A stretch of DNA of 26,875 nucleotides from Chromera velia (taxonomy: Eukaryota; Sar; Chromeraceae): the NCBI GenBank assembly GCA_018398765.1, contig JAHBMJ010001717.1:1-26875 (forward strand), in the 5' to 3' direction. The position numbers and the translations under genes were made by a program. Shown one piece after another: positions 7,734 to 26,598 of this stretch. The notes under the pieces are model-generated. The model was given only the letters and a program-made list of their open reading frames with translations. It searched no databases and was not told the DNA's origin. Position 1 is the first letter of the stretch, and each line of letters begins with the position of its first letter.

Positions 7734-9841
7734 ATGCTGCAGTCTTCCACGGAGACCCAACCTCGCGGACCGGAGGATGGTGGCGGTTTGGGCAAACTTC
7801 TCTCCCTTCTGCCTCGTGCTACTGCGGCCTCAGATCCGCTTCAGGTCATCAAGTCGCCATTTGATCTTGCCAGCATTCTCGCGTTGGGTTTCTCTCGCGA
7901 AGACGTCGCCCGATCGGAGTCTCTCCAGGTCCTCGCAGGGCGGGGAGGGACCAGCGCAGCTTCGGCTTCTCAGAGCACAGAATCCATTCAGCCGTCAGAA
8001 ACTGAATCCGCCGAGGCTGTGAACACCGATAACTCAGCACAATTCGACGTGGAGGCAGGTCAACAGGAGGAGGCTGACAACTCCTGCAAACCGAAAGGGA
8101 TCGAGGACAGATTGAGAAGACTTGATGCCATCGCAGCAGGTCCCCGTCTCCTTTTTCCAACCACACAGTTGTCCTTCTCCAGCAAAGTCCAGCCGTTCCG
8201 CTCTGTCTCTGTCCGCTATGAAATTCTCAATTGCACATCCAAAGGAGAGGCTTCGATGTCTGTCTTCTTTCTCCACTGGCTGACCCACGTCGCCTTCAAG
8301 AGAAACACAGGTTTTGCAGTCTTCCCGATTCTCTTCGCTTCTGTCGGACCCGAAATCGTCTTTCCCTTCATCCTCCTCAACCTCCTGTGTGGTGCGACTG
8401 CCGGACTTCTGAAGCACACCCTCCAAGTGCCGAGACCCTACTGGGTCCGTCACTCCCTGCAGACTAGCGGCCTGGAGTCAGAAGGGTATGCGACGCCCTC
8501 TCAACATGCCGTGGCCTCTGCGGTTCCTGTGGCCGTGTTCGCCCTCTTCGCGCCTTCTGCAGAAAGCGTAGCCGTGCTCGTCTTGTTGGCAACTTCCGTC
8601 GGACGGATTGTGCTGGGGAACCACTACGTGCAGGTCTGTCGGTCGGTCAGTTTGTTTGTTTGTTTGTGTGTGTGTGTGTGTGTGTTTGTATGTCCTTCAG
8701 AATGTGCTGGGGAACCACTACGTGCAGGTCTGTCGGTCGGTCGGACGGTTGCGAGTGCATGTCTGAAGTTTCTCTAGATCGCCGATGCAGGACATAACAT
8801 AAGGAGCGAACAGGGATTCGTTGATTGAAGAGAAGGGCGGCTGGCTGAGGGGTTTGGCGGAGACTTGATACGCCTTTCGTCTGCTGATTGAGAGGAGAGA
8901 AGAGAAGGGAAGGGAAGAGAAGAGAAGGGAAGAGAAGAGGAGAGAAGAGAAGGGAAGAGAAAAGAAGAGAAGAGAAGAGAAGAGAAGAGAAGGGAAGAGA
9001 AAAGAAGGGAAGAGAAGAGAAGAGAAGGGAAGGGAAGAGAAAAGAAGGGAAGAGAAGAGAAGGGAAGGGAAGAGAAGAGAAGACCGGTTTCGTTCAATTT
9101 CTTCTAAGACTCTACATGGCAGCTTTTCTAACTTGATAGATTGATTGATTGATTGATGTCATCGAAACATAGCAGGTTGATTGCTTGGGTCGATTGCATT
9201 CGAATTGAATCGAGGTTCTCACTCAATTTTTGCTTTCATTCATGTGTTTGCAGGACGTCCTGGCAGGTCTTGCCGTCGTTCTCTTCTGGGGGCTGATTCT
9301 GGTTGCCTGTAAGGATTTCATACCGGTTGTTCCTGTGAATATGGAGACAGTGTGGATTATCTTCGCAGTCCTCACGGCCCTCGCAGCGTGTTTGCCTCTG
9401 ACTTTTTTCCTCTTCCCGGAGATACCCTTTGAGTTGAGGAAACTCTGGAGACCCAATGCTAAGGACAGCGACCCGTCCCCCAGAAACACGCGGAAGTTCT
9501 GGTGGTCTATCGGGGGGGGTGCCGGATTATTCCTTGGATCCGGGATCGTGTATGCGGCTCCCTGGTGGACATACAGGAATGTGCTTCCTGAGGAATCCTT
9601 CCGTTTCAGGAGCAGGGGAAAGGTCACAGTGGCGTTTTCAGTCCTGTACTCTTTCATGTTGTACTGTCTGATCGAGAAGGGCCGCGGTCTTCTGAGGAGG
9701 CTGGTTGGAAAAGGGGTTCTGTCACAAGTGTTCGAGGGCGGCTACTATCTAGTCTTCAGCGCAGGCTCTCTCCTGTTCTTTGCCTGGCTTGCAGATGGGG
9801 GGGCAGAAGGGCGTCTTCACTCCCCGTCTGAGTGCTTGTGA
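7734..9841 (+). CDS. PAP2-superfamily lipid phosphatase, sphingosine-1-phosphate phosphatase-like
   Basis: Two exons, 7734-8633 (300 codons) and 9254-9841, join in phase 0 to give 495 residues ending in TGA. All three PAP2 signature blocks are present: K227-x6-R234-P235 (KHTLQVPRP), P255-S-Q-H258 (YATPSQHA) and R291-x5-H297-x3-D301, the last split by the intron (GNHYVQ/DVLAG). H258 and H297 are the expected catalytic histidines. The active-site blocks look most like sphingosine/long-chain-base phosphate phosphatases, which dephosphorylate LCB-phosphates in the ER membrane. The N-terminal ~150 residues are Ser/Glu/Gln-rich and probably cytosolic; several hydrophobic segments follow (about 175-290 and 301-480). 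The ATG is the first in frame after a stop at 7641. The PSQH variant replaces the commoner PSGH or PSTH. Exact substrate is inference. Confidence 0.9.
8609..8742 (+). repeat. Tandem duplication of the PAP2 exon 1 end and splice donor
   Basis: An identical 40-bp sequence, starting TGTGCTGGGGAACC and ending GTCTGTCGGTCGGTC, occurs at 8609-8648 and 8703-8742 (period 94). Copy 1 holds the last 25 bases of exon 1 plus donor; copy 2 lies in the intron and recreates the same donor after 8727. Splicing at copy 2 would add 94 nt and shift the frame. Confidence 0.95.
8651..8690 (+). repeat. (TTTG)n(GT)n microsatellite
   Basis: Three TTTG units run into a pure GT tract, sitting between the two copies of the duplicated donor in the PAP2 intron. 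Confidence 0.85.
8890..9082 (+). repeat. GA-only minisatellite (AGAGAAGGGA family)
   Basis: Almost 200 bases contain only A and G on the plus strand, built of AGAGA, AGGGA and AAAGA pentamer-like units. It fills the middle of the 620-nt PAP2 intron. Such a homopurine tract is a candidate for triplex (H-DNA) formation, and any ORFs through it are artefacts of composition. Confidence 0.95.
9136..9157 (+). repeat. (GATT)n microsatellite
   Basis: Four to five GATT units about 100 nt before the PAP2 exon 2 acceptor. Confidence 0.85.
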
Positions 9842-10213
9842 AGGGAAAGAGGGAGGTGTCTCCCCCCTCTAGTTTTGAGAGCAGGACGAAGGAAGTTATT
9901 TGTCTTGATTCCTCTGACAGGCCCGCAAAGCCACATGAGCATGCAGAGAGGCTGCAGCTTTCTTTTTGAATTGATGGATGCGTACCTGCTCTTTTTCTTT
10001 CGAGAGCGCTCGAGCAGGCCGAGACAGACAAGGGCAGAGTCTGAGGCCGAGAGCGAAGACAGAGCGACTTTGCCTGGAGGGCATGGAATGGGATGGGAAG
10101 AATACTGAGCGTGATTACTCCCTTCAGACTGGCTCATTGACTGGCTGACAGCGACGTGAAAAAAAAAAAAGCGAAGAATGGAAAACAGTGTCAGGACCTT
10201 TTCAAGTGTATGA

Positions 10214-25200: not shown

Positions 25201-26598
25201 GTGACCATCCAGAGCAGTAGAGAGAGTATAAAGAGGGGCAGACGACCCATACACACACACACACAGAGAGAGAGAGAGAGAGAGAGAGAGGGAGAGAGAG
25301 AGAGAGAGAGAGAGAGAGAGAGAGAGAGAGAGAGAGAGAGAGAGAGAGAGGCACAGACACACATGCACACACAGAAAGACAGAGAGAGAGAGAGAGGGAG
25401 GGAAGGAGACATCGCTGGAAGGAAAAACCGAAACGAAGAGATGGAGAGGGAAAAGGCAACCCGAAGGCAGTCTCGAAATAAAGGAAAGGAAAATGGAGCG
25501 AGGATCGCTCAAAAGAATTCATGCGCCCAAGATACCGAGAGAAGAGCGGTACAAACTCAAGAGTGCAGAGACAGCAGAAAAATGGAAACATGTTCGCCAC
25601 TGTCTGACTGACTGTGTGTGTGACTGTCTGACTGACTGACGGGGTTCATGAAAGAGTTGAGAACGTTACTTTCGATCAGCCCGCCCCACGCAGGTTTCAT
25701 TTCATATCCTTGGAAGAGCACGTACGTGTCCAGCTGCAGGCAATCAAAAGATGCACATGTATGTGTGAATAGATAGACAAAGATGTATGTCTGCATTATC
25801 GCACTATCATTCCCTTCGTATCTCTGGAAGAGGAGGTTTGTGTCGAGCTACATGAATGAAAAAAGTGGGGAGGATGGGGAGGAAGTTAGAGGACGGAGAA
25901 CAGAGGACGGATTGAGAAGAAGGTTAGACGTGCTCTCTTCTTTCTCCGCATACCGAAAGCCACCGGAAGGAGACAAAGGAAAAGAACGCCGGGATGGAGG
26001 GAGAAACGGGCATGCACAAACAAATACAGCAATTAAGTGAAGCAGAGCGGAAAGGCTCGAGATGTGCTTGGCTTGGTTGGGAATCCATTCGCAAGCGCGA
26101 CGCTTGCATGTGCGTGCGTGCCTGTCTTTCTGCTTTTTTGCATTCATCTATATCTGCATGATCTATCTACAGGCGGAGAGGCAGAAAAGACACGAAGCAA
26201 CCTACCATCATTCAACCAACTTCCCCAAACAGCTAAGCAAGCATACACGCAACGGGCCTCACGGTCGAGTGAGGCCTCTTCTCTGCTCCCTCTGTCTCTG
26301 TCTGTGTGTGTGTGTGTGTGTGTGTGTGTGTCTCCCCCTGACCAACCAACCAACCAACCAAGCTATCAACTGACCAACCTGCCAGTAGGACATGTAGAAG
26401 AAGAATGTGCCAACGAAGATGAGAGGCACTAGAGAGAGCACACGTCTGGTGTCGTCCACAATTGAGGGACTAAATTCCCCCCCCCCCCTGCTTGTCCTCT
26501 TTTGACTTTCCAAGTCGGGGGGGCACCTCGACAGACACCCAAAAACGACCCTCACGATTTGAACGAGGGAACTGCCGAGGGGCCTCCGCTTCACATAG
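22255..26598 (-). CDS. POT/PTR2 (SLC15, NPF) family proton-coupled oligopeptide transporter, C-terminal half (5' partial)
   Basis: Eight exons: 26598-26527, 26469-26379, 25733-25641, 25193-25129, 24538-24440, 24196-24083, 23335-23224, 22929-22255. Phases close at every join, giving about 439 residues ending in TAA. The order of features fits the POT family from the central loop to TM12: RRPLGSSLVQIVRVVFG, then IVDDTRRVLSLVPLIF (TM7), FYMSYWQLDTYVLFQG, LNSFMNPLCLVVFAF (TM8), SRRGIVPNQMDKFMIG (TM9), GLIAIGEVFAAPASLDLAY (TM10), RLAPPSTKAIAIGL (TM11), and a Cys-containing loop before TM12 (VRIWIIYLIAAAF). The family imports di/tripeptides or nitrate with protons. A ~130-residue acidic and Ser/Gly-rich tail follows TM12, longer than usual. 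The last acceptor (CAGAG, 22929) is the least certain join. TM1-6 lie outside the window. Substrate not inferable. Confidence 0.85.
24780..24995. repeat. Compound (CTTT)n/(CTGT)n/(CTGC)n tetranucleotide repeat
   Basis: More than 200 bases of shifting period-4 repeats in the transporter intron between 24539 and 25128. Frames through it on both strands are composition artefacts. Confidence 0.95.
25085..25118. repeat. (CTTT)n repeat beside a donor
   Basis: CTTT/CTCT units begin 11 nt inside the intron from the donor of exon 25193-25129; on the coding strand they read (AAAG)n. Confidence 0.85.
25251..25400. repeat. (CA)n(GA)n long compound microsatellite
   Basis: A short CA tract leads into about 85 bases of GA with few GGGA interruptions, then CACACA and a second GA tract. 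It reads as a long CT run upstream of the 25193 acceptor on the coding strand. Confidence 0.95.
26301..26378. repeat. (GT)n and (CCAA)n repeats starting at a transporter donor
   Basis: On the coding strand the intron begins GTTGGTCAGTTG and a (GTTG)n run follows at 26361-26342, then the (AC)n tract at 26330-26302. Confidence 0.9.

Follow-up and report, generated by a model that had tools for sequence, protein, structure and literature searches.

GT-led four-base repeats at splice donors of Chromera velia: a conserved donor signal as a probable seed that acts much like an ordinary one

Microsatellites are born from short chance seeds, which grow in whole units by slippage and decay by substitution. 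Here we analyse introns that open, at the splice donor itself, with a GT-led four-base array, (GTNN)n, in a stretch of Chromera velia DNA (the window: positions 1-26875 of one contig, C1715, within a 177.8 Mb, 4,040-contig eukaryotic genome) and in other genes of the same genome. Compared with the general model of microsatellite birth, the seed here would be held by the splice signal, and the same spot could be seeded again. Among described splice signals, GYNNGY tandem 5' splice sites share with these donors two GT or GC donors four bases apart (Wang et al., 2014; PMC4267661). At those sites alternative use was measured by RNA sequencing in human and mouse (PMC4267661), whereas the donors considered here are known from genomic DNA alone; the ladder here often has at least three rungs, and the letters of the unit are copied. 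Intron gain by tandem genomic duplication is reported to involve a tandem duplication within a gene that carries splice signals (PMC4974935), and the duplicated exon tail of a PAP2-superfamily gene in the window (94-base spacing) is alike; the four-base arrays, in contrast, head existing introns and create none. A literature search found no description of a donor-anchored GTNN repeat pattern, which does not prove that none exists.

The association of four-base repeats with donors is genuine and extends to the genes that were testable in the genome. The original prediction of a systematic link between the splice signal and microsatellite birth stands as regards anchoring, phase and copying of the NN letters, but not as regards a special birth process at donors, and the donor is best described as a conserved seed that is presumably kept in place by selection and acts much like an ordinary seed. 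A conserved donor seed, copying by slippage and mutational decay together are probably the best explanation of the arrays.

The prediction had named nine sites at which introns of the window begin as period-4 repeats. All nine start a GT-led period-4 tract and each is a donor in our gene models, six lying in an ALDH1/2-like gene and one in the PAP2-superfamily gene (protein-verified), and two, 26378 and 25640, in a POT-like gene, where they were placed from frame and GT alone. As repeats the sites are period-4 tracts, but several have only two or three units and are not long microsatellites. The GT-led array at 8634 does comprise 13 units, although its label of GTNG units is inaccurate (GTCT GTCG GTCG GTCA GTTT...). 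The ALDH product has 518 amino acids and matches Pfam Aldedh (6e-179); its alignment with human ALDH2 runs from residue 42 to residue 514 and takes in all 14 junctions. The genes and the donors with arrays are as follows.

14006..21275, minus strand: ALDH1/2-like gene, 15 exons and 14 introns (protein alignment and Pfam)
19895..19906, minus strand: ALDH intron 4 donor, GTGA GTTT GTTT (protein-aligned model; beyond the nine sites)
19362..19373, minus strand: ALDH intron 5 donor, GTTG GTTT GTGT (protein-aligned model; beyond the nine sites)
18671..18694, minus strand: ALDH intron 6 donor, six units, GTGC GTGC GTCG GTCG GTTG GTGG (protein-aligned model)
17694..17705, minus strand: ALDH intron 8 donor, (GTGG)3 (protein-aligned model)
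17256..17271, minus strand: ALDH intron 9 donor, (GTCA)4 (protein-aligned model)
16248..16259, minus strand: ALDH intron 11 donor, GTGC GTGC GTTG (protein-aligned model)
15583..15598, minus strand: ALDH intron 12 donor, (GTTT)3 GTCT (protein-aligned model)
15021..15032, minus strand: ALDH intron 13 donor, GTCG GTCG GTCT (protein-aligned model)
14646..14657, minus strand: ALDH intron 14 donor, GTTG GTCG GTTT (protein-aligned model; beyond the nine sites)
7734..9841, plus strand: PAP2-superfamily gene, two modelled exons, 495 amino acids (Pfam)
8634..8685, plus strand: intron donor of the PAP2 gene, an array of 13 GT-led units, GTCT GTCG GTCG GTCA, four GTTT, then GTGT units (Pfam-supported model)
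22266..26440, minus strand: POT/PTR2-like transporter gene, partial model (Pfam and reading frame)
26367..26378, minus strand: POT-like gene donor, GTTG GTCA GTTG (junction from frame only)
25629..25640, minus strand: POT-like gene donor, (GTCA)3, then GACA (acceptor not established)
135..1398, plus strand: unnamed gene with donors at 178 (GTGA GTGA) and 753 (GTGA only) (model; no Pfam match)

Five ALDH introns (21077, 20909, 20323, 18264 and 16753) have no third GT unit at the donor, and the further POT-like donors at 24439, 24082 and 23223 have two GTNN units apiece. The part of the POT-like gene that holds donors 26378 and 25640 has no Pfam match, and the intron at 25640 probably holds an unseen exon, because the acceptor modelled for it breaks the frame. 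Over the 22 window introns, GTNNGT stands at 18 donors and at least three GTNN units at 12, with GT-run lengths of one (4 introns), two (6), three (8), four (2), six (1) and 13 (1).

Outside the window, 78 introns of the same genome were collected, giving 100 in all: seven from an ankyrin-repeat gene, five from one ab initio gene (G54), seven from a DEAD-box helicase, two from an NSA2-like gene, four from a hand-read kinesin, two from a hand-read actin-like gene, 31 from other kinesins and 20 from HSP70 genes. The 31 kinesin introns, placed from profile contiguity and frame, go back to 134 matches, from which 40 junctions of neighbouring matches were fetched and nine dropped because they were unclear or lacked a candidate (L046, L057, L059, L064, L067, L069, L074, L078 and L079); at L041, L070, L072 and L077 the donor is other than the script's first candidate. 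The dropped junction L059 (C1717) would, by reading, suit a GC-AG donor, CTGCAA/GCAAGT. For HSP70, 22 neighbouring junctions were listed, two were omitted before fetching and 20 donors were read from protein homology. The five G54 and two NSA2-like junctions were retained from the wider ab initio predictions described below, the former as predicted and the latter after reading, and those of the DEAD-box gene came from an ab initio run and were partly re-read. The ankyrin-repeat gene was found through its grid of 99- to 102-nucleotide exons (C3361, minus strand, reverse complement 69486-73506); successive exons of 99 or 102 nucleotides carry one repeat each, and the intron heads differ. The donor-choosing scripts ignored intron-side letters, hand picks were made with the hypothesis known, and (GTCA)n donors that had served as a search criterion (L001 and L004) were excluded from every count. 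Wider ab initio predictions over 200 kb (contigs C641 and C3361, donors being scored from exon-side letters alone) reached at least two units in 17 of 35 consensus introns, and 16 of the 21 introns so predicted in the window were true; they were dropped as an estimate because homology reading moved both actin-like donors and other predicted donors resembled open coding sequence. A stricter set of 60 introns, from which G54 and 13 junctions of lower certainty had been removed, gave the same answer as the 78.

A donor had been proposed to be one and a half repeat units already, and GTNNGT indeed stands at 82 of the 100 donors. Among the outside donors G occupies +5 in 96% and T occupies +6 in 82%, with +3 and +4 mixed, and the run lengths are one (14), two (41), three (16), four (4), five (1), six (1) and 14 (1). 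The predicted enrichment at +1 over other intron positions was present, with at least three units at 12/22 window and 23/78 outside donors vs 57/1,326 intron-interior GTs that start a run; it comes mostly from the GTNNGT donor signal itself. GT frequency in the outside set falls from 0.82 at +5 to 0.33 at +9, 0.18 at +13 and 0.14 at +17, against an out-of-phase mean of 0.05, and the phase anchored at +1 continues to +21: GT is found at 32 of 234 in-phase places at +13, +17 and +21 (13.7%) vs 53 of 1014 out-of-phase places (5.2%; p=2e-5), or 30/180 vs 32/780 in the stricter set (p=3e-8).

The claim that the unit itself is copied held up: the NN letters of adjacent units match within introns above permutation, for +4/+8, +7/+11 and +8/+12 each at p=0.0005, the lowest value that 2,000 permutations can give, and for +3/+7 at p=0.034. 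This fits slippage, and it points to copying rather than selection alone, because the NN letters of later units would otherwise not track each other. Head-to-tail copies stand directly at donors, as in (GTCA)4 at 17271, (GTCA)5 in L089 and the 14 GT-led units of L042, which open with (GTCA)8. HSP70 paralogues on contigs C786 and C1522 have (GTCA)2 and (GTCA)5, respectively, at one shared intron position and differ in letters at four other shared positions. An excess of self-match at a lag of four bases peaks at the donor, is present in introns and is absent from the ALDH and PAP2 coding sequences; taken as the margin above lags 3, 5 and 7, it is 0.21 at +13..+40 vs 0.10 mid-intron in 48 outside introns (p=0.035), and the same comparison in 21 window introns gives p=0.010, so that a wider effect exists on the donor side. 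Towards the acceptor, in the last 70 nucleotides of introns, period-4 self-match climbs as well (outside p=0.02, window p=0.003), where there is no GT seed.

These arrays may be understood as follows. The donor signal, loose at +3/+4, fixed for GT at +1 and +2 and near-fixed for GT at +5 and +6, suits base-pairing to AC..AC at the end of a canonical U1, and purifying selection on it would therefore retain a seed of one and a half tetranucleotide units where most introns begin. Slippage during replication, or else tandem duplication on a small scale, active with a four-base period in the non-coding DNA examined, would then copy the unit away from the donor to give (GTNN)n in donor phase. Point mutation would afterwards erode GT and NN columns of the copies equally, and the later units presumably have no role of their own.

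That birth is specific to donors, as had also been supposed, was not borne out by the outside introns. Where GTNNGT is present, outside donors continue into a third unit in 23/64 cases, compared with 57/202 for intron interiors of window and outside sets together (p=0.27) and 33/132 for the interiors of these outside introns themselves (p=0.13); exact (GTab)3 is found at 5/64 donors vs 11/138 interior places, and identical first and second units at 22/64 vs 32/138 (p=0.12).

Several points weigh against a conserved seed with slippage. Window donors carry a third unit more often than interior GTNNGT places do (12/18 vs 57/202, p=0.002), an excess that the seed leaves unexplained, and the pooled 100 introns keep a modest excess (35/82 vs 57/202, p=0.025). 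The main result against this explanation is that unit 3 in the window retains its G and T at 0.78 vs 0.61 for NN, a difference not expected from slippage alone. Donors do not favour long runs: four or more units follow from three or more in 11/35 cases vs 31/57 in introns (p=0.05), and in the kinesin pair C664/C2722 the first units of two donors show one substitution and zero length change. Genome-wide counts do speak for the seed, with CAG(GTCA)4 occurring 83 times and AC(GTCA)4 109 times, about a twofold excess over the ratio of 0.38 predicted from trimer frequencies taken from 227 kb (p=5e-6), but the signal is modest because the backward-read control gave 69 against 83; of the eight loci fetched out of the 83, one kinesin and one DEAD-box gene by reading have the array directly at a donor. 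As a further point against it, junctions outside ALDH come from profile contiguity or homology reading with the hypothesis known, and the interior control takes in some 300-nucleotide stretches without a fixed acceptor.

Both third-unit excesses would be expected if the functional donor were longer, with GT at +9/+10, and perhaps +13/+14, under selection, the extra registers providing more U1 landing sites or offsetting weak pairing at +3/+4. U1 carries AC-NN-AC, as such a donor would use, and among the 42 introns collected first, of which the window supplied 22, GT was kept despite an NN difference in 12/22 cases vs 21/105 (p=0.0016). This apparent positional selection failed once the kinesin and HSP70 introns joined. 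The outside introns do not repeat the third-unit excess (6/26 in kinesins), and their unit 3 gives little sign of a longer functional donor, as GT and NN decay nearly alike there, with G and T retained at 0.61 and 0.53, slightly above the 0.56 and 0.48 of NN; GT is kept with NN changed in 16 cases vs GT lost with NN kept in 13, and in 22 vs 16 inside their introns. Nor does a longer donor predict the copying of NN within introns. The U6 core AACGAUACAGAG is present in six of the seven copies found, the seventh reading AAUGAUACAGAG, and the best U1 copy (L038) has the 5' end AAACUUACCUG, with A at position 2 where the Rfam consensus has U; the genome search for small nuclear RNAs scores the best candidates only, and two more U1-like copies score under the Rfam cut-off. 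An extended U6 reading AC-NN-ACAGAG, which would pair with +5/+6 and +9/+10, was ruled out, the U6 core being canonical. Among the copies found, no U1 or U6 change matches a longer donor, and since the U6 core is canonical and U1 near-canonical, no change seen in these RNAs explains one. We consider an extended functional donor unlikely.

A different possibility is that a striking window was picked from introns that are full of tetranucleotide repeats anyway, with the donor only setting the phase. Extension per GTNNGT outside the window equals that of the intron interior, the ab initio introns reach at least three units in only 4/35, and most arrays lie away from donors: in the window 4/28 arrays of at least four units start at a donor and 24/28 elsewhere, and in 227 kb AG precedes 7/181 GTNN arrays, a figure that understates donors, as many do not follow AG. 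Richness also differs by gene, with at least three units at 9/14 ALDH donors vs 6/31 kinesin donors, and the window is rich in donor arrays relative to other genes. However, the period-4 self-match at +13..+40 exceeds that of mid-intron in both sets, and exact tracts of at least 12 nucleotides start at +1 in 8/75 introns vs two over the next eight positions combined, the donor signal supplying part of the +1 match. We regard background repeats as an improbable account of the whole pattern. As to strand, sense and antisense intronic GTNN runs of at least three units number 36 vs 18 outside and 27 vs 9 in the window, and those of at least four units 19 vs 10 outside (not significant) and 14 vs 4 in the window; sense-strand GT is commoner than sense AC in introns of the 100-intron set.

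Introner-like or other mobile insertions might have brought intron and GTNN repeat together, the arrays being their ends, and invasive intronic elements have been reported in the alveolate Amoebophrya (PMC7789003). The units differ between introns (GTCA, GTGG, GTTT, GTCG, GTGC), and we hold such an origin to be very improbable.

The window contains other repeats as well. In the PAP2-superfamily gene the exon tail is duplicated together with the donor array (8605-8750); its second copy (8701-8727) is preceded by TTCAG and would give a 27-nucleotide in-frame extra exon, NVLGNHYVQ. At 2880-7150 a unit of about 2 kb is present twice in tandem, together with a partial third copy; the stretch has a gag-like open reading frame rich in Cys and His and one N at 5640, and by eye it is a retroelement array. 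Minisatellites occupy 8891-9083, 10224-10358 and 14494-14669, their units being 40, 45 and 62 bases long, respectively.

It is conceivable, if doubtful, that donors serve as permanent microsatellite nurseries held by selection, which would constantly re-seed sense GTNN, lengthen introns from the donor inward and offer a ladder of equivalent donors at four-base intervals that feeds frame-shifted isoforms. The arrays raise the question of how the first of several equal GTs is chosen by a spliceosome whose U1 and U6 are near-normal, given that a four-base slip would break the frame. If the conserved donor seed is the true explanation, microsatellite birth would be testable at very many fixed, independently selected seeds in one genome, and the seeds would predict where length polymorphism should lie.

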